Assembly (NCBI RefSeq): GCF_016902615.1
Contig: NZ_JACJMB010000014.1
Location: 1 to 59,622 of the forward strand
Source: Collinsella tanakaei
Lineage (GTDB): Bacteria > Actinomycetota > Coriobacteriia > Coriobacteriales > Coriobacteriaceae
Direction of reading: 5' to 3'
Length of the DNA stretch: 59,622 nucleotides
In this document: one piece after another, positions 5,559 to 43,403 of the stretch
How positions within the stretch are numbered: the stretch's first letter is position 1
Layout: each line of letters opens with the position of its first letter
Position numbers and translations under genes: made by a program
Notes under the pieces: model-generated
What the model was told of the DNA's origin: nothing
Database searches by the model: none
What the model saw: only the letters and a program-made list of their open reading frames with translations

Positions 5559-7178
5559 ATGAGCGAGACGATTCCGACCAGATTCGAGAACGCGGCGATC
5601 CTCACCGAGGACCCCGCCTGCCCCCGCGCGGACACGATGGTCGTCCAGGGAGGGTCCATCGCCTGGGTGGGCTGGGCAGACGATGTGCCCGAGCGCTTCA
5701 CCGGCGACGCGTGCCGCGCCGTCGACCTCGCGGGCGCCCGCGTCATCCCCGGTTTCGTGGACGCGCACATGCACGCGCTCATGCTCGCCGCCTTCAGCAC
5801 GCAGATCTCGGCGCTGCCGCCCGCGGTCAACTCCATCGAGGAGCTCGTGGACGCCATACGCCGCGTGCGCGCGACCCAGGACGCCGACATGTGGATCCAG
5901 GGCTGGGGCTACGACGAGGAGCTGCTGGCCGAAAAGCGCTCCCCCACCCGCTGGGACCTCGACCGCGGATGCGCCGACGCCCCCGTGTGCATCCTGCGCA
6001 CCTGCGGGCACATCCGCTGCGTGAACAGCCGCGCCCTCGAGATCGCCGGCATCACGCGTGACACCCCCGATCCCGCAGGCGGCCAGATCGAGCGCGACGA
6101 GAACGGCGAGCCCACCGGGGTCCTCAAGGAGACGGCGCGCGACCTCGTGAACCCGTACATCCCGCATGCGAGCCTCGAGGACGACGTGCGCAACCTCGTC
6201 GACCTCGGTCGGCTCATGGCCTCCCAGGGCATCGTCGCCGCGACGGACATGTGCACGCTCGACGGCACCGACGCCATGCCCGCGCTGCGAGCCGCCGCGC
6301 GCGCCGGCCTGAAGCAGGATGTCGCCACCTACGTGCTGTGGGATTACGTGAAGGACGACCCCGCCTTCCGCATCGATACGAAGGAGACCGACCGGGCGCA
6401 ACAGGTGTTCTGCGCCGGCATCAAGCTGCTCTCCGATGGAAGCGTCTCCGGCAGGACCGCCTGGTTCGACGTGCCCTACCTGGGCGCCGACCCGTCTGAC
6501 CCCGACGCGTGCGGCTTTCCCACCTGCACCGATGAGGAGCTCGACGGCGCCATCGCCTTCTGCCGCGACAACACCTGCCAGCTCTCCGTCCACGCCATGG
6601 GCACGCGCGCCATCGACCGCGTGCTGGCGCACCTCGACGGTATCGCGCCGTGGTGCGAGGGATATCCGCACGTCCGCATGGAGCACGTGACGGCGCCGTC
6701 CGCTCAAGCCGTCGAGACGTTCGCGCGCACGGGCATCGGCGTGGTCACCCAGCCCATCTTCCCCTACGCGGAGATCGCCACCTACCGCGCCAACTGCGGG
6801 GATGAGCGCACGCGCACCTACTATCCGCTGCGCACGCTCATCGACGCCGGCGTGAGGCTCTGCATCTCCACCGACGCGCCCGCAACCTCGTGGGCCACGC
6901 CCTCCGATCCCTTCCCCAACATCAAAAGCGCCGTCACCCGCCACGCGAGCACGGGCTTCGACTTCGGGGCGTCCGAGCGCATCGACATCGAGGAGGCCCT
7001 CGCGCTCTACACGCGCGAGGCGGCGCGCATGGTCGGATTCGCCGACCTCGGCATGCTGCGCGCAGGCTACAAGGCGAGCTTCGTCGTGCTCGACCGCGAC
7101 ATCCTGGCCGTTCCCGCCGATGAGATCGACCAGGTGGGCGTCAGCGCGACCTACATCCGCGGCGAGCGGGTCTTCTAG
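5559..7178 (+). CDS. Amidohydrolase family protein, YtcJ-like
   Basis: A 539-residue TIM-barrel metallohydrolase. GFVDAHMH supplies the HxH metal pair (H70, H72), followed by GIKLLSDGS, SVHAMGTRAID, RMEHV and the late aspartate in ISTDAPATSW. These match the YtcJ-type amidohydrolase group, whose substrates are mostly undefined (amides or N-formyl compounds). The start ATG has GGGAGGCGG upstream. It is divergent from the M20 amidohydrolase and MFS genes, so the three may serve one scavenging pathway, but that is inference. Confidence 0.88.
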   Translation: MSETIPTRFENAAILTEDPACPRADTMVVQGGSIAWVGWADDVPERFTGDACRAVDLAGARVIPGFVDAHMHALMLAAFSTQISALPPAVNSIEELVDAIRRVRATQDADMWIQGWGYDEELLAEKRSPTRWDLDRGCADAPVCILRTCGHIRCVNSRALEIAGITRDTPDPAGGQIERDENGEPTGVLKETARDLVNPYIPHASLEDDVRNLVDLGRLMASQGIVAATDMCTLDGTDAMPALRAAARAGLKQDVATYVLWDYVKDDPAFRIDTKETDRAQQVFCAGIKLLSDGSVSGRTAWFDVPYLGADPSDPDACGFPTCTDEELDGAIAFCRDNTCQLSVHAMGTRAIDRVLAHLDGIAPWCEGYPHVRMEHVTAPSAQAVETFARTGIGVVTQPIFPYAEIATYRANCGDERTRTYYPLRTLIDAGVRLCISTDAPATSWATPSDPFPNIKSAVTRHASTGFDFGASERIDIEEALALYTREAARMVGFADLGMLRAGYKASFVVLDRDILAVPADEIDQVGVSATYIRGERVF

Positions 7179-30226: not shown

Positions 30227-33200
30227 GAATCACCCCCGCATACGCGAGGAACACGAGTTCCCGAAGGACAACCACATCTACGAGCTGGGCTCATCCCCGC
30301 ATACGCGGGGAGCACAGCCCGGTCCCCGCACTCATCACGCGCTACCGGGGATCATCCCCGCATACGCGGGGAGCACGACTACGCGGGCGACCCGCGCCAC
30401 TTCAAGGTGGGATCATCCCCGCATACGCGGGGAGCACCTGAAAGGGTTCGACCTCGGCGACCTGGTGGAGGGATCATCCCCGCATACGCGGGGAGCACTC
30501 CGCCGCCTTCCCGGCCCTGCCTGCCGCCGCGGGATCATCCCCGCATACGCGGAGAGCACTAGCCCAGCTTGAGGTTGTCGAGCATTGCGTAGGGATCATC
30601 CCCGCATACGCGGGGAGCACGGGCCATTGGGTTAAATTGCGTGGCGCTCTCCAGGATCATCCCCGCATACGCGGGGAGCACATGTCCGTTATGAGGGCGG
30701 GCCGTTTTTTCATCGGATCATCCCCGCATACGCGGGGAGCACATGGACTCGATGTTCGTGCTCATCTTGTTCGCGGGATCATCCCCGCATACGCGGGGAG
30801 CACCTCCCTGTACGGCTTGACGCATTTTTGGTGCGAGGATCATCCCCGCATACGCGGGGAGCACCTTATCGATGGCACGCCCACCACCTACAAGTGCGGA
30901 TCATCCCCGCATACGCGGGGAGCACAAGGCCGGGTACTCAAGGATAATCAGCTCGTCGGGATCATCCCCGCATACGCGGGGAGCACCCGCGAATATCGAA
31001 ACCGTCGCCCTGGCAATTGGGATCATCCCCGCATACGCGGGGAGCACGCTCGGCACGGGATTGCCATGCGGTCTGGGCCGGGATCATCCCCGCATACGCG
31101 GGGAGCACATCGAGGGCGTCAACAAGGCGGTGGACCCGTCGGGATCATCCCCGCATACGCGGGGAGCACGACGATGGGAAGCCTTGCGAATGGGCCTACG
31201 CAGGATCATCCCCGCATACGCGGGGAGCACTCAAGCCGGTGACATTGCTTATTGTCAGAGTGTAGGATCATCCCCGCATACGCGGGGAGCACCAAGCAAG
31301 CAACCTGCTTGTGAGGATTTTCGAGGGATCATCCCCGCATACGCGGGGAGCACCGATATCACGCTCACGATGGACGATATTTCTTGGGATCATCCCCGCA
31401 TACGCGGGGAGCACCTGATTAGGTGGGGCCGGATGCACCGGCCCCGGGGATCATCCCCGCATACGCGGGGAGCACTGGAAGTACGCCTGCAGGGCCGGTG
31501 CCGCCGCGGGATCATCCCCGCATACGCGGGGAGCACATCTCGGGGATGGTTATCTCGTCGATGCTGATGGGATCATCCCCGCATACGCGGGGAGCACCGC
31601 TCCGCCTGCGACGGGGTCACGCTCAGCGAGGGATCATCCCCGCATACGCGGGGAGCACTCCGCGAATTTCGAGCGGATGCAGTCACGGGCGGGATCATCC
31701 CCGCATACGCGGGGAGCACCCGCTCTGCTTCTTGATTCTGTCGCTGTTGCTGGGATCATCCCCGCATACGCGGGGAGCACAAGGGCACGAACATGTGCCC
31801 GTACGCCGCGCCGGGATCATCCCCGCATACGCGGGGAGCACGGGGACTACGGCGGCACGTTCTGCATGGGGACGGGATCATCCCCGCATACGCGGGGAGC
31901 ACCATGGAGGCCACCGTCTCCATCGCAAAGGGCGAGGATCATCCCCGCATACGCGGGGAGCACGAGCCGCTGTACCCGGGCGACGAGCGCCGCATCGGAT
32001 CATCCCCGCATACGCGGGGAGCACATCCTTCTTTCTATCGGGGCTTGTTATCTGCCGGGATCATCCCCGCATACGCGGGGAGCACTCGGTGCCGATGCCC
32101 CCGGTCTTGACGGAGACCGGATCATCCCCGCATACGCGGGGAGCACGCAGTCGGCGCATCTCGAGGTCGGTCAACCTCAGGATCATCCCCGCATACGCGG
32201 GGAGCACTCCGTCGATATAGATTGGGACCGCTACAGGCGGGGATCATCCCCGCATACGCGGGGAGCACGTAGTCAAAGAAGACGGTTACGCATCCGTGCG
32301 CGGATCATCCCCGCATACGCGGGGAGCACGAGGCCGTCACGAACCCCGAGATCGACGCGATGGGATCATCCCCGCATACGCGGGGAGCACGCGTATCGCA
32401 GCATGGTCTGGCGCGCCGCGTCGGGATCATCCCCGCATACGCGGGGAGCACGTCCTCTGCCGCGAGGACGGCGAGTGGGCGGGGGGATCATCCCCGCATA
32501 CGCGGGGAGCACGCGGGCTCGTCATCCTCCCCGACGCGCTCTGTGGGATCATCCCCGCATACGCGGGGAGCACATCAAGGGGGCCGATGAAGCGCTCCGC
32601 GACGAGGGATCATCCCCGCATACGCGGGGAGCACGTACGAAAAGCTGATGGCATCGCAGCAGGCCGTGGATCATCCCCGCATACGCGGGGAGCACAACAT
32701 CGGGCGGGTAGATTTCCTGCACCGTGACGGATCATCCCCGCATACGCGGGGAGCACTCGACGGTAGCCAAACGAGAGTGCAACCACATGGGATCATCCCC
32801 GCATACGCGGGGAGCACTAGGCCTGCTCGGGGCCGGCGACGCTGAGTCTGGGATCATCCCCGCATACGCGGGGAGCACGCCATGGAGAAGGGAGAGATAT
32901 CCGCCCAAGAGGGATCATCCCCGCATACGCGGGGAGCACGTGAACGACAAGCACGTCACGGTCATGTACCAGGGATCATCCCCGCATACGCGGGGAGCAC
33001 GTGCTGTGGGGACCGCATACGGCGGCCTACGAGGGATCATCCCCGCATACGCGGGGAGCACTGAGCGGCGTTGCGCGCGTCCTCCGCCGCCGCAGGATCA
33101 TCCCCGCATACGCGGGGAGCACGCTTCAACGCGGCGACGGGCGCCGTCCCGAGCGGGATCATCCCCGCATACGCGGGGAGCACGTGGGCAAGCTCGATTC

Positions 33201-33733
33201 CCTGCAACGAGAACGGGGATCATCCCCGCATACGCGGGGAGCACCATCACGTCGACGTACCACGTGAAGTCCATGGTCGGATCATCCCCGCATACGCGGG
33301 GAGCACCCGCACGTACACGCCATCAAAGGTGATGGCCGGGGATCATCCCCGCATACGCGGGGAGCACGTGGCCGTAGATAACGCCGTCGGCGGTGAAAAG
33401 GGATCATCCCCGCATACGCGGGGAGCACAGCTCGCCGAGGCGGCGCTAGACTTCGCATGGGGGATCATCCCCGCATACGCGGGGAGCACTTCGGAACGTA
33501 CACCGACATGTACGGCGTTGAGGGATCATCCCCGCATACGCGGGGAGCACGCCGACATGTTGTACGCGATGAGCTGCACGTTGGGATCATCCCCGCATAC
33601 GCGGGGAGCACAAGGGGCCGGACGGCTCCACGCGCAGCAGCCTGGGATCATCCCCGCATACGCGGGGAGCACGCGTCGGTGAGCTGGTGGTCCTGCTTCC
33701 ATTCAGGATCATCCCCGCATACGCGGGGAGCAC
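30227..33733 (-). CRISPR. Type I-E CRISPR array, 58 repeats and 57 spacers
   Basis: The 28-bp repeat reads GTGCTCCCCGCGTATGCGGG followed by GATGATCC on the transcribed minus strand, the GTTCCCCGC..GCGGGG form of type I-E. The period is 61 bp (33-bp spacers), with 34-bp spacers starting after the 17th and 50th repeats counted from 30227. The repeat at 30227-30254 has about four mismatches, the next has one, and the sixth has one in its stem; the rest look uniform. Degeneracy at the left and the leader at the right give transcription from the cas2 side, so the newest spacers are near 33700. Translations of this array give repetitive false proteins. Confidence 0.98.
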
Positions 33734-35187: not shown

Positions 35188-35856
35188 CTATACAGGGACG
35201 ATGGTCATGAGACCGCATCCGAATCCCTTTGCCCGCCCGATGCCGAAACCAAGCGCATGGCGAAAGTGGTCGGCATCGAGAACGCGGAGCACGCCGTCGA
35301 ATTGGCCCGTTGCCAGCGTCACCTTTGAACCATCACGGCCAAATGCCTCGCGAGCGCGATGAGACACAATGACGTCGGCGGGATCTCCTATTAGCCCAAA
35401 TCCATGGGCCCCGCTGCGATCAGCGAGCCATTTGATCTGCTGTGAGACGGTCACGTGTCCGAGTACGCTGCCAATGGCTCCCTCGCGCGGCCTTGCAGCC
35501 TTGTCGACGAGAACCTTGCGCGCAGGGTTTGCCTTAAGCCGGAAACGCCAAAGGCTGCCATCTTGAATCCGCCCAACAAACGGCGCATAGTCTTTCGAGC
35601 GGACACTCTCCTCGGGCACACCGAAGCGATCTGCCACCTCGTGAACAAGCGGTATCTCGGGGCTCACGATATACAGGCGGGCCGTGTCAGCGGTCAAGCC
35701 GTCATCGATGCGCCAGAGAATGCGGCAATCGTCATCCTCTCTCAGAGCAAGGGAGGAAAAAGATGCCTCGATGGCGGCATGCGTTCTATACGGGGAAGCT
35801 ATGACCTTCAGCGTCTGACGTCGCGTCATATCAAGGTCAACACAAGATAGGAACAC
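35188..35856 (-). CDS. cas6e: crRNA endoribonuclease Cas6e
   Basis: A 222-residue RAMP protein that cuts the repeat RNA at the base of its hairpin and stays bound to the crRNA. The N-terminus MFLSCVDLDMTRRQTLKVIA is typical. H26 lies where T. thermophilus Cse3 has its catalytic His26. The C-terminal glycine-rich loop GIGRAKGFGCGLM is conserved. The start is GTG at 35856, supported by GGAGGTGACC. It lies 18 bp after cas5e and 41 bp before cas1. Confidence 0.95.
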   Translation of the reverse strand: MFLSCVDLDMTRRQTLKVIASPYRTHAAIEASFSSLALREDDDCRILWRIDDGLTADTARLYIVSPEIPLVHEVADRFGVPEESVRSKDYAPFVGRIQDGSLWRFRLKANPARKVLVDKAARPREGAIGSVLGHVTVSQQIKWLADRSGAHGFGLIGDPADVIVSHRAREAFGRDGSKVTLATGQFDGVLRVLDADHFRHALGFGIGRAKGFGCGLMTIVPV

Positions 35857-38406: not shown

Positions 38407-40107
38407 CTATTGTTCCTGTTCATCGACCAAAGTTCTCGTTGAAACGGTGTCAGCTGATAGGGATCCAAGTTCCCGGTTCAAGCTTCTCCTCAGCTGCTCG
38501 AGCGCCCTGCCAGCAGGTATCGTCCCTCCCCCAAAGAGCGGAACTTCAGATTCGGACAAGAAGTCCTCAGCAATGCGGAGAAGCGTTTTATGGACTTCAC
38601 GAAGCCACAATGAACAATAGTCATACACATCATCGTTCGGTCCAAGATGCGCGATCCGTGCCCTGAACAGCCCATCGAGCTCATCGTACGCTTGCGTCGC
38701 AACATCTTGACGCGATGCGCCGGCAGCAGAGTCGCCCTTCGAACCATACCGACGTTTATCGCCTTGAGACATCGACACGTTCACGACGAAGTGGATCAAA
38801 GAGCCCACCGCCCTGTCGGTCTGAGAGATGACCTCAAGAGTCTTGACCGTCGCCTCAGCATCATGGCGAAGCATGAGAGCATGAAGTGAAACCGTGTCGT
38901 CAACGCCATCGGCATAAACACTATCGTTGGTTCCATATTCCATACCATGAGCCCGAATAGAAAGCGGCATCGCCTTGTCGATTGCGCCCTCGAGTTCGAG
39001 CCGTTCTACCCACCGAATGACACCGGGGCGCATGTCAGGCTGACCCGAATCGGCTGAATCTTCGTACGCGATCAGCGAAGAAAGGCCGCGCCAGATGCTC
39101 CTGTTCGGGTCGTGTTTGCGAGCCATCCAGGGAACATATGGGAGGGCCCATTTCTTTTGCTGGGCTTCGCTCTTGCGCCACGGCGTCATCATCTCGACAC
39201 CTTGCTTGTCAATAGGCCTTATGGCGTCTCCGTAACACAAAACAACACCTGTCACACACGTACCCTCGTCATTGGGGATAAGCCGGATGCGCCGGCTCTG
39301 CCATGTGAGCATCTGAATAGGCCCCGCCGGTTCAGCCACCGTCATGTCCGGACCGATGTCATCCCGTTCCCACGGTGCGAAATCGCCGTCGATATCAAGA
39401 AGTCCGATGCGACTCGAGCGGTCATCGACCATCACCCAGTTCAGCATAAGGGTCTGGAAAAGATTCTCGCCTTCGACAATTGTTCCGCCGATGCCTCCGC
39501 ACCAACCAGTACCGGGCATGTTCTTCGGTGGATACACCTTCCCCTTGTTGACATGGGTATTGCCAACAACCGGCGTCTTGATGCCCGAAGTGTCGTACCC
39601 CTGTGCTACCAAGAGATATCGAGCTGCCTCATCAAAGGCAAGTGTCCCCGCATGCCTGAAAGAGCGCATGGAAAAAAGCGTCTTATCGAGCCTCGTGGGG
39701 ACATCGGGCATGATTGCGCTGATAGGCGATGGGTCGGCAGCTGTATAGGCGAGTCCTGACACCTGATAGAATGGTTTGTCGCCGAAGAGGTCAAACCGGT
39801 CCCGATACTCATCGAGATATTCGGCGACCCCCTCGTGGGGAAAACGTCCAAGCTCCCAAATCTCTCGCCACAAAGTGAGAAGTCCCTGTTCTCCCTGTTC
39901 AGGATCTCCATATGTGCAATAGAGAATCGCCTCGCAAAGACGGACCGTTGCGAAATGCATGTGTGTCAGCTCGCCCGATATCGTTCGGATTCGATGCGCT
40001 TCCGCAAACAGTGCCTTCAGGCCGAGTTTTGTTGTCCTGCCGTCGAGCATCTCGACTTGGATCCAAGGCTCTTCAAGTAGGTTATACGTTGGCTGCTGAG
40101 CTTCCAT
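38407..40107 (-). CDS. cas8e: Cascade large subunit Cas8e (Cse1)
   Basis: A 566-residue protein that recognises the PAM and recruits Cas3. It begins with the family-typical YNLLEEPWIQVEMLDG and contains FDLFGDKPFYQV and WCGGIGGTIVEGENLFQTLM. The start at 40107 has GGGAGGAGAG upstream; a longer in-frame reading would run through the repeat-like hairpin at 40134-40161 and is unlikely. It is first in the Cascade cluster, 173 bp after cas3. Confidence 0.93.
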   Translation of the reverse strand: MEAQQPTYNLLEEPWIQVEMLDGRTTKLGLKALFAEAHRIRTISGELTHMHFATVRLCEAILYCTYGDPEQGEQGLLTLWREIWELGRFPHEGVAEYLDEYRDRFDLFGDKPFYQVSGLAYTAADPSPISAIMPDVPTRLDKTLFSMRSFRHAGTLAFDEAARYLLVAQGYDTSGIKTPVVGNTHVNKGKVYPPKNMPGTGWCGGIGGTIVEGENLFQTLMLNWVMVDDRSSRIGLLDIDGDFAPWERDDIGPDMTVAEPAGPIQMLTWQSRRIRLIPNDEGTCVTGVVLCYGDAIRPIDKQGVEMMTPWRKSEAQQKKWALPYVPWMARKHDPNRSIWRGLSSLIAYEDSADSGQPDMRPGVIRWVERLELEGAIDKAMPLSIRAHGMEYGTNDSVYADGVDDTVSLHALMLRHDAEATVKTLEVISQTDRAVGSLIHFVVNVSMSQGDKRRYGSKGDSAAGASRQDVATQAYDELDGLFRARIAHLGPNDDVYDYCSLWLREVHKTLLRIAEDFLSESEVPLFGGGTIPAGRALEQLRRSLNRELGSLSADTVSTRTLVDEQEQ

Positions 40108-40133
40108 CTCTCCTCCCTTCCTTTCGTCGGTTT

Positions 40134-40161
40134 GCCAAATCCCCACGTACGTGGGGAACAT
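40134..40161 (-). promoter_or_regulatory. Solitary CRISPR-repeat-like hairpin upstream of cas8e
   Basis: On the minus strand the 28-mer begins ATGTTCCCCACGTACGTGGGG. It matches the array repeat at 19 of 28 positions, in the same orientation as array transcription. The stem CCCCAC/GTGGGG differs from the array stem CCCCGC/GCGGGG at both partners of one pair (G-C to A-U), so pairing is kept. The core is a perfect 16-bp DNA palindrome (40141-40156). It ends 26 bases before the cas8e ATG. A weak -35-like TTGACC lies upstream. It could be a Cas6e site in the operon mRNA, part of a degenerate mini-CRISPR RNA, or an operator. Confidence 0.6.
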
Positions 40162-40280
40162 TCTGAGAGGAGCTGCAAAAACCAACCACAGCTATGGGTC
40201 AACCAGAGGGCGTGCCGAACCCGGGGAGGTTGAACGAGCTCGGCACATTTCTGGAACACGTAGCTCCTACAACAACTAGT

Positions 40281-43200
40281 CTAACTAGCTTTGTTTAGTT
40301 TTTGGTTAGATTCTCCGCGAACGGCAGATAAACCACCCTGTCTGGTATACGCCAGGTTCCAGCCGAGGACCTCCGCGCAAAACATCATCGGCTCCCATTC
40401 GCGCAAAACCAGGAGAAGCTCGCCAGCAAGCCAACCGGAATCCTGCCACGCTCCGACATACGGGGCGCTCATATCCTCAAGAGCGTCTAGAAGCGGATCG
40501 ATACCCCTACCGGGACACATCTCGAGGGGCAATCGTACCGACGACTGGGACAGCACCCTCGCCAGCCTATCTTCGGGCTCATATCCCACGGGAATGTACG
40601 AACCCTTTTCAACACCATGGGGTTCATCGCCGATCCAAGGAAGTAGATGGAGCCCGTCTTCCCTTTCGCACGCAAGCAGCACCTCAATGGTCTCTTGCGT
40701 ATCGCGCACGGCGCGAGGGCCTCTGTCCTCATCGTGACCACGAAGGGCCGAGCTTTCCGCATCAATCATATCGTCGAAGAGCCCGATGAGACTCTTCCCG
40801 TTCTCAACCAACTCAGAGACAGATTTGAGCAAGCATGCCTGCGCACGACGCTTCTTCTCTTCCTGATGCGAGCCCCTACGGACAACGGCATCAAGATATC
40901 GGTCTTTCCAACTCTCTGGTACGCTCTCATCAGCTTTACCGCCATAAGCGCTTTGAACCAGACGCGCAATATCCCTGGGAAGCTCCAAGGTTGCAGCGTC
41001 GCCCCAAGAGGAAATCCCGCAAACAGAAAGGGCCTCGATAAGAGACGCTCGCTCATACACTGCCTCAACACCGCGACTAAAGCCAATTGAATCGCTTGAA
41101 AGCTCCTCGATTCCGCGCATATAGCAGTGCGCCCGGCGCAACCCGGCAGGCCTTTCCAGTTCTCCTTCACCACGTCCGTGACGATGCAGGCGTCCTATTC
41201 TCTGCATGAGCAGATCGATGGGAGCCACATCGGTGACCATCGTATCGAAATCGATATCAAGCGACTGCTCGATCACCTGCGTACCGACGACGATGAGCCG
41301 ATCCGGGCGGGTCCCAGCGGAGCGCCGCGCCTTCGGCCCCAACAACCTCCGGAGCTCCTCCTCGTTCTCCATGCGATCGATATCGGTAAAGCGCGAATGC
41401 GTCAGCAAGACCTCATCAGTCCCAAAGGTCTGCGACAGTACGGCAAAGGCATGCTGGGCGCGCTTCACCGTATCGCAGACGACGCCCATGCATCCTCCAT
41501 CGGTCAACAGCTTGCGCGCAAGCGACACCAAAGAACCCTCGTCATCAGCCAAAACTGACAGCTCGATCGAAATGTCACGCGATGAGGGGCTCACCTCCTC
41601 GGTCATCGATGTGTCCCCGGCCGTATAGGTAATCAGCGGATACGCACTGCATTCCCGTTCATCATCGTCTACAAGAACAGACCTTTCCGGTGCACCCAAG
41701 CGTGCACCGCGCCTGCGCCGAAACGAGCTGCGGACGCTCCTCGCTTGACCGGATCTTTCCTGAGCTTCGGCACCTGCCTTCCGCCCTGACACGCTCCGAC
41801 CCCTCGAATAAGAAGCGACAAATTCCTTTCGCAAGGAGGCGGGCAACGTTGCCGAGAGCAGCACGACGGGCGTGCGCCAGGAACCGAGCCACTCCAGCAC
41901 ACGATTGAGATACTGCTGCATGTACATATCATACGCATGGCATTCGTCAATGATGACCACCTTGTCCAGAAGCGCAAGGTGACGTAAGGGCAGATGCTTC
42001 ATTGCCAGAGCCCCCATGAGGACCTGGTCGACCGTACAGACGACAAAATCGGCCAGCATACCTTTCTTTCGTCCGCGCATCCAATCGGACACCTGAGCCA
42101 CCTCAGAAGCGCTTGTTCTGCCCCGACCATATCCGAAATCGTCATCATCCTGGTTAATGGAACCGTATCGGTCAGGATGGGGCGATCGAATCAAACCTTG
42201 AAATTCCTCGTTGAGACCCGCCTTACCGTGAGCCAGGTACACGCTCTCGGGATGCTCGGCGGCACGGGGAAGATTTTCGATCCATCTATGCACACGGCCA
42301 AACATAGCATCGGTCGTCGCCATAGTGGGAAGTGCTACGCATACGCCACCCCGTCCATACCGACCGGCAAGGATTTCAGCCGCTGCGAGCGCAGCTTCGG
42401 TTTTCCCCTCGCCCATGGGCGCTTCAACAACCATGATTCCGAGGTCATCGACCGTTCGCGCTATCCGCATAGCCGCTTCCTGTACGGGCCGCGGCTTCGC
42501 CGTATCCGGCAGATCGAAACGCTCGGCAAACGGAAACTCCAGGCCCAACGACGGTGCACTCCAGCTGGGGAGTATGCCGGTGATCTCCCATGCGTCGCTC
42601 GTCCGCCGCTCAAGCCACGACTCCCAATCGTGACCATCGGGCCCCGCTTCCATGGGTTCGAGTACCGGAAGCAAGGGATAATAGCTCTGGTTACTAGCGA
42701 TCCAGTCAGCCATGATCATCAGACCGACGAGCGCGCTTTCCACATTAACGGGAAGCGACTTACGTCCGCATTCTTCGTGATCGAGAAGGTTCAGGCCCGA
42801 AAGCTTTTCTGCGAACTGAATCAATTCGACCTGGACGGCGCGCCAAGAAGCTGCATGGGCCTCATCCCATCCAAGGGCAGTCGACTTTTTGGTTGCCTCG
42901 GCAATATCTCTGGAGACCGGCGGCTTGCCATGATGCGCGCCCACCATACTCGAAAGCTCATTCGCTCGCGACGCGCTCCACCCGCATTTCTCGGTAAGGT
43001 AACCCGCAAGAATGACCTCGCCAGCAGCTGCATGCTTGGGCCGATGTTCGCGGAACAGAGCAGGATGGATATCAAGTCCTGCTCGTTCTGGCTTCCAAGA
43101 TAAATCGCCATCCTCAGAGTGAGCGTAAGTGCGTCCGCTCCCCTGAAATAGCGGTGTCGCCTTTCCGATATCATGTACAGCGCCAAGGAACCGGACAAGC

Positions 43201-43403
43201 TTGCTGAGTACCTGATCGGAAGCCCCGCTTTCGTGCGCAAGCATCTCCTTGACACCGGATGGTATCCAATCGGTCCACAGCCTACCGATGACACATGCGC
43301 TGTCGTACATGTGTACAAAGAGCGGGAGCCATTCCTCGCCGATACCATAGTCGGACTTCGCCCAAAGCGAACGCGCCTGTCGGGAAAGCTCTTTTGCGAC
43401 CAT
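40281..43403 (-). CDS. cas3: CRISPR-associated helicase-nuclease Cas3
   Basis: A 1040-residue effector that unwinds and degrades targets marked by Cascade. The HD nuclease has AVHDIGK (H77, D78) and GAHHGKP (H157, H158). The SF2 helicase has Walker A APMGEGKTEAA (328-338), DECH (485-488), SATLP (516-520) and QRIGRLHRHGR. It exceeds E. coli Cas3 (888 residues), partly through an arginine-rich insert at about 535-582 just after the SATLP motif. The start has GAGGTGGAAGCCAG upstream. It lies 92 bp after the DEDDh exonuclease gene. Confidence 0.95.
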   Translation of the reverse strand: MVAKELSRQARSLWAKSDYGIGEEWLPLFVHMYDSACVIGRLWTDWIPSGVKEMLAHESGASDQVLSKLVRFLGAVHDIGKATPLFQGSGRTYAHSEDGDLSWKPERAGLDIHPALFREHRPKHAAAGEVILAGYLTEKCGWSASRANELSSMVGAHHGKPPVSRDIAEATKKSTALGWDEAHAASWRAVQVELIQFAEKLSGLNLLDHEECGRKSLPVNVESALVGLMIMADWIASNQSYYPLLPVLEPMEAGPDGHDWESWLERRTSDAWEITGILPSWSAPSLGLEFPFAERFDLPDTAKPRPVQEAAMRIARTVDDLGIMVVEAPMGEGKTEAALAAAEILAGRYGRGGVCVALPTMATTDAMFGRVHRWIENLPRAAEHPESVYLAHGKAGLNEEFQGLIRSPHPDRYGSINQDDDDFGYGRGRTSASEVAQVSDWMRGRKKGMLADFVVCTVDQVLMGALAMKHLPLRHLALLDKVVIIDECHAYDMYMQQYLNRVLEWLGSWRTPVVLLSATLPASLRKEFVASYSRGRSVSGRKAGAEAQERSGQARSVRSSFRRRRGARLGAPERSVLVDDDERECSAYPLITYTAGDTSMTEEVSPSSRDISIELSVLADDEGSLVSLARKLLTDGGCMGVVCDTVKRAQHAFAVLSQTFGTDEVLLTHSRFTDIDRMENEEELRRLLGPKARRSAGTRPDRLIVVGTQVIEQSLDIDFDTMVTDVAPIDLLMQRIGRLHRHGRGEGELERPAGLRRAHCYMRGIEELSSDSIGFSRGVEAVYERASLIEALSVCGISSWGDAATLELPRDIARLVQSAYGGKADESVPESWKDRYLDAVVRRGSHQEEKKRRAQACLLKSVSELVENGKSLIGLFDDMIDAESSALRGHDEDRGPRAVRDTQETIEVLLACEREDGLHLLPWIGDEPHGVEKGSYIPVGYEPEDRLARVLSQSSVRLPLEMCPGRGIDPLLDALEDMSAPYVGAWQDSGWLAGELLLVLREWEPMMFCAEVLGWNLAYTRQGGLSAVRGESNQKLNKAS

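Follow-up and report, generated by a model that had tools for sequence, protein, structure and literature searches.

A putative CreR-type autorepressor guide between cas3 and cas8e in type I-E CRISPR-Cas loci of Coriobacteriales

Analysing a 59,622-nucleotide stretch of Collinsella tanakaei DNA (the window), which belongs to an assembly of 2.45 Mb in 92 contigs, we conclude that the 173-nt gap between cas3 and cas8e very probably encodes a CreR-type autorepressor guide for the operon of type I-E Cascade itself. As this guide matches the operon's own promoter-like region, Cascade would most likely lower its own production. The guide lies in a degenerate mini-CRISPR, an arrangement recovered in 20 of the 21 Coriobacteriales loci whose cas3–cas8e gap spans at least 100 bp, and comparison of these loci points to the coevolution of guide and target across the lineage.

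The mini-CRISPR of the window

The type I-E operon of the window runs on the minus strand in the order cas3, gap, cas8e, cse2, cas7, cas5, cas6e, cas1, cas2 and array, and NCBIfam family models recognised all Cascade subunits together with Cas6e, Cas3, Cas1 and Cas2. The features considered are the following:

30227–33733, minus: CRISPR array, 58 repeats at ≤5 mismatches
35188–35856, minus: cas6e, the expected processing enzyme
38407–40107, minus: cas8e (cse1/casA), which opens the unit presumed to be repressed
40134–40161, minus: second repeat (psiR2), the 28-mer first reported, with its stem at 40141–40156
40141–40202, minus: predicted mature CreR-like RNA of 62 nt (handle, guide, 3' hairpin), following Cas6e rules
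40162–40194, minus: guide, 33 nt, whose positions 1–19 match the target except 6, 9 and 12
40195–40202, minus: 8-nt crRNA-type handle TTGACCCA, directly 3' of the psiR1 hairpin
40203–40254, minus: first repeat (psiR1), an extended hairpin in the predicted fold, closing pairs CCAGA/TCTGG
40278–40283, minus: TAGACT, weak -10-like hexamer (4/6) of a putative promoter
40281–43403, minus: cas3, upstream of the mini-CRISPR element
40283–40285, plus: AAC in the PAM position, adjoining the protospacer
40286–40304, plus: protospacer TAGCTTTGTTTAGTTTTTG, overlapping the last cas3 codons, first 17 nt scored

The original prediction had placed a solitary repeat-like hairpin in this gap, the coordinates of which (40108–40280) were exact. 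As claimed, psiR2 shares 19 of its 28 positions with the array repeat GTGCTCCCCGCGTATGCGGGGATGATCC, a score that dinucleotide shuffling of the gap equalled 3 times in 5000, and it is the joint best non-array 28-mer of the window, tied with one site near 6659; at just 19/28, the near-identical repeats that are the hallmark of an ordinary CRISPR array are absent here. The compensatory change described in its stem (CCCCAC-GTAC-GTGGGG) is real and recurs among relatives: an alignment of 19 loci shows 12 with A-U and 7 with G-C as the fifth pair and, for the sixth, 16 with C-G, 2 with U-A and 1 unpaired. The alignment of relatives' gaps that had been proposed as a check bore out the covariation, with 99.1% of cells paired versus 36–60% when the partner was slid. 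A clear psiR2 stem is found in 19 of the 20 positive loci, and no T-run follows it on the 3' side in the 19 loci checked. Two other claims required revision. The hairpin was said to end just before the cas8e ribosome binding site; the ATG, at 40107, lies 33 nt past the end of the stem, leaving a short leader between hairpin and cas8e start. Moreover, psiR2 is not solitary but the second repeat of a degenerate mini-CRISPR: upstream, where no second repeat had been seen, the hairpin of a strongly diverged first repeat and its handle were found.

The sequence of psiR1 has drifted from the array repeat, and none of its stretches exceeds 19/28, since no 28-mer of the gap scores higher than psiR2. 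The RNA of the gap has a predicted fold of -49.8 kcal/mol (z -2.97), with a long hairpin closed by CCAGA/UCUGG and the handle UUGACCCA immediately after it. The spacing of the two repeats approximates one array period, the predicted cut sites being 62 nt apart and those of the array 61. Among the 20 positive loci, all handles fit NTGNNCCN and 17 fit NTGANCCN; the psiR1 stem, judged by eye, ends at most 2 nt from the handle in 15 predicted folds, and no stem end lies that close to the handle in L010, L017, L018, L022 and L024. One aspect of the window's predicted fold speaks against a CreR: the guide seed pairs within its own hairpin, and two handle bases pair upstream. The gap of L005 reverses the usual pattern, with a first repeat that looks intact (stem CCCCACATATGTGGGG, handle ATGATCCA) and a degenerate candidate in place of any clear second repeat.

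At the cas3 stop, the target TAGCTTTGTTTAGTTTTTG is matched by the guide TAGCTGTGGTTGGTTTTTG at 14 of 15 scored positions, with mismatches at 6, 9 and 12. In exact form, the pattern shared by both occurs in the 2.45-Mb assembly only at the guide and target sites; three further sites appear at 3 mismatches, for six such sites with a reversed-pattern control. No second match of at least 10/15 with an AAN PAM was found in ~20 kb of the window, nor was there one in 14 of the 20 loci. Other places scoring 10–11 occur in the remaining six (L005, L008, L010, L021, L022 and L024), among them one ~3.3 kb upstream of cas8e in L024; such a site scores 11 in L008, above the 10 of the target, and ties with the target at 11 in L005.

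The PAMs of the 20 targets are AAC (16 loci) or AAT (4). In type I-E systems, the base after the 28-nt repeat is PAM-derived; over 678 array repeats from 18 loci, this base is C in 579, T in 77, G in 15 and A in 7, hence C or T in 656, with which the target PAMs agree. In addition, the array spacer at 31963–31996 of the window has a 94% match in two phage records, MT835922 and OR777945, within the same 114 bases. There, GAA and then G precede the protospacer, giving a PAM of AAG whose last base is the first of the spacer; this protospacer, the sole usable one for the window's array, thus follows the same PAM logic as the targets. Exact searches of viral_contigs with four array-spacer pieces gave 0 matches each, and the arrays of L058 and L060 yielded only phage matches of ~69–72% identity, with no usable protospacer. 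The leader-distal last repeat of the window's array (30227–30254) is degenerate, with 4 mismatches.

Guide-target pairing across Coriobacteriales

A Cas8e match was obtained in 34 of 395 Coriobacteriales genomes, 30 of which gave loci: the gap spans 100 bp or more in 21, the genes touch in eight, leaving no room for the element, and one locus could be assigned to neither group. Left out were L001 (duplicate of L002), L006 (on the contig of L003), L049 (weak partial match), L007 (Ligilactobacillus, no cas3 end near cas8e) and L030 (contig not long enough to cover the gap). The 20 positive loci are split over three families (7, 12 and 1) and hold 19 distinct guides and 20 distinct targets; L011, the other gapped locus, gave no guide-target pair in the handle-anchored test. 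Within the genus of the window, Cas8e was matched in just 4 of 43 genomes, which points to a patchy distribution of the I-E locus.

Three kinds of search converged on these pairs. When unanchored and bound to an AAN rule, the search ranked the handle-adjacent guide first on its own in 14 of the 20 loci and jointly first in 4, but not first in L005 and L008; per-locus shuffles were strong (≤2/200) in 11 loci and weak (7–72/200) in 9. Anchored on the handle, cognate pairs averaged 12.55/15 versus 7.34 over 380 non-cognate pairs, a difference reached in 0 of 100,000 permutations, and the own target was sole best for 16 of 20 guides and tied for 4; the per-locus shuffles of this test are not blind, because the handles were typed after viewing earlier results. 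A stem-anchored search without PAM rule, blinder than the handle-anchored one although these loci had also supplied its four offsets, recovered the same guide in 19 of 20 loci (combined P 9e-25). Here, at most 15 of 1000 shuffles were as good in 17 loci, for 29 in L003, 603 in L008 and 883 in L005. Support from L005 and L008 is weak.

The pairing itself displays a clear register. From guide positions 1 to 9, matches number 20, 20, 16, 20, 20, 5, 20, 20 and 15 among the 20 loci, and from positions 10 to 18 they number 18, 17, 4, 17, 13, 14, 9, 12 and 4. Positions 6, 12 and 18 thus match in just 5, 4 and 4 loci, the depletion reaching P 1e-8 at position 6 and P 6e-10 at position 12. Cascade flips out every sixth base. 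Scoring all positions without mask or PAM rule led to the same 20 targets. Furthermore, where guides depart at paired positions, the target mirrors the change in 105 of 115 cases, as against 12 of 35 cases where the departure falls on position 6, 12 or 18.

Proposed autorepression and its alternatives

In 13 of the 20 loci, TATAAT-like hexamers (5–6 matches) begin 0–12 nt beyond the PAM, versus 1.7 loci in shuffled sequences (0/1000), and farther out there is no excess. In the window, the hexamer matches at 4/6 and a sigma-70 scan of the target region found no promoter, so that the covering of a promoter by the guide is here a putative arrangement. In the mechanism that we propose, a promoter at the cas3 3' end would drive transcription of psiR1, handle, guide and psiR2, and the transcript would continue into cas8e and the downstream genes. 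Cas6e would cut each hairpin at its 3' base, so that the cas8e leader would yield a crRNA-like RNA; cutting at the psiR2 stem is what would be expected of a CreR. Guide-loaded Cascade would then occupy the AAC-flanked site over the promoter and block transcription of its own genes, while pairing over just the first ~11–19 nt would spare the chromosome from Cas3 attack. By analogy with published CreRs, repression would be expected to lift once Cascade is taken up by array crRNAs or anti-CRISPRs.

Guide length adds a further dimension to this proposal. From guide start to the CCCC of psiR2, the window has a distance of 38, L003 one of 37 and 17 other loci one of 25–26; the array equivalent, calculated from repeat and spacer lengths, is 37–38, which makes the guides of these 17 loci 11–13 nt shorter, at ~20–21 nt. 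Such a shortening corresponds to about two 6-nt Cas7 steps. According to two published accounts, crRNA length sets the backbone length of the I-F complex (PMC6828817), and a type I-B spacer cut to 24 bp keeps repression and loses interference (PMC10989794). A smaller, repression-only Cascade may be formed in this lineage. We give an even chance to the fuller reading in which Cas6e excises the repressor guide from the 5' leader of the Cas6e/Cascade mRNA and the short guides of most of the lineage yield that smaller complex; under this reading, excision from the leader would supply guide and effector from one transcript.

Other explanations account for parts of these observations. A hairpin serving as a mere Cas6e cut site, either for trimming the cas8e leader or for sensing free Cas6e, next to an incidental guide, would suit the conserved psiR2 stem, its compensatory changes and the lack of a following T-run in 19 loci; it is nevertheless very unlikely, as it leaves the guide-target match, the PAM and the 6-nt register of 20 loci unexplained. 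The degenerate repeats, and the presence of a full 58-repeat array already in the operon, would also fit a decayed immune mini-array or an accidental, functionless self-targeting spacer. Own guides beat foreign ones, however, and decay would not yield targets that track guide changes (105/115), which renders such a relic highly improbable.

The guide could also belong to a CreTA-type addiction module and repress a toxin, an option raised by the original prediction, and its architecture is indeed that of CreA as described in PMC8501985. However, the stretch from PAM or target to handle ranges over 11–152 nt among the 20 loci, with no common length, and cas8e comes next; no conserved toxin therefore fits, although a very small RNA toxin may be possible in the longer gaps, and we consider such a module to have only a minimal probability. 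Similarly, CCCCACGTACGTGGGG forms a perfect 16-bp palindrome in the window, as a DNA site for a regulator protein might; but in relatives the central four bases differ and frequently break the palindrome while the stem still pairs, and a palindrome leaves psiR1, handle and guide unexplained, making a protein site scarcely credible. The CreR-type option, which the original prediction had also considered, draws support from the handle, the partial match upstream of cas8e, the array-predicted PAM and the lineage-wide coevolution.

Relation to known systems and related elements

CRISPR self-control of this kind is known from other bacteria. In Streptococcus pyogenes, Cas9 is said to autorepress through a natural single guide derived from a long tracrRNA, in a type II system without mini-CRISPR; the effector would likewise repress its own promoter in our proposal. 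The cas-regulating CreR RNAs, with autorepression of the effector, were reportedly described by Liu et al. (2023, Cell Host Microbe 31:1481). Like these, the present element has a crRNA-like guide in or near a cas locus with partial complementarity to a (here putative) cas promoter: the guide lies between two degenerate repeats linked to cas genes, and its limited complementarity falls upstream of cas genes, next to a PAM. CreRs of types I-B, I-E and V-A are already described in PMC13131331 and PMC12737573; compared with CreRs as such citing papers portray them, the element is sense-oriented in the cas3–cas8e gap, and 17 loci have guides 11–13 nt short.

The CreA literature reports pairing at positions 1–5 and 7–11, with 6 and 12 unused (PMC8501985), and a psiR1 more diverged than psiR2 in CreTA (PMC9458426). 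The element resembles CreA by its two degenerate repeats, its more diverged psiR1, its 8-nt 5' handle and its 1–5/7–11 seed pairing; CreA, as portrayed there, represses a toxin RNA, whereas here cas8e is next, without room for a conserved toxin. Racr, described in PMC10651486 as inhibitory solitary repeats on phages, is likewise a repeat mimic but viral, whereas the present element lies between host cas genes and has a guide. A literature search, to which most subscription journals were out of reach, found no published account of the element in this lineage. Possibly new are the lineage, the position in the cas8e leader, the shortening of the guides by 11–13 nt in 17 loci and the record of coevolution.

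These results would explain the cas3–cas8e element of gut Coriobacteriales and suggest that self-repression has been retained in three families. The 20 natural guide-target pairs, with 19 different guides, reveal through their joint variation which pairing positions matter, and the short natural guides make a short-spacer Cascade testable as a dedicated repressor. If the proposal is true, CRISPR activity would be self-limited in these bacteria and may rise under anti-CRISPRs.

Related elements were also encountered outside the main set. Among five other Actinomycetota loci with a cas3–cas8e gap, antisense guides aimed just upstream of cas8e scored 14/15 in L036, 14/15 in L047 and 11/15 in L048 (0, 0 and 1 of 300 shuffles); these loci, and perhaps L046, carry an antisense mini-CRISPR with AAT or AAA as PAM. 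A freer search of six gapped loci, without shuffle control, gave 13 for L046 and also 12 for L011 and L040, so that L046 is suggestive at most; the gap of L040 held no antisense version with a handle, and the opposite-strand-only version of this search gave no matches. Finally, the 950 nt upstream of cas3 were searched in 17 further operons, mostly without gap, 14 of which gave no match. The other three scored 15/15 (L089), 14/15 (L094) and 12/15 (L092, where shuffles also match, 1/20). In L089 and L094, whose cas3 and cas8e touch, a handle-led guide upstream of cas3 matches a nearby AAT-flanked site, and both loci look positive by sequence.
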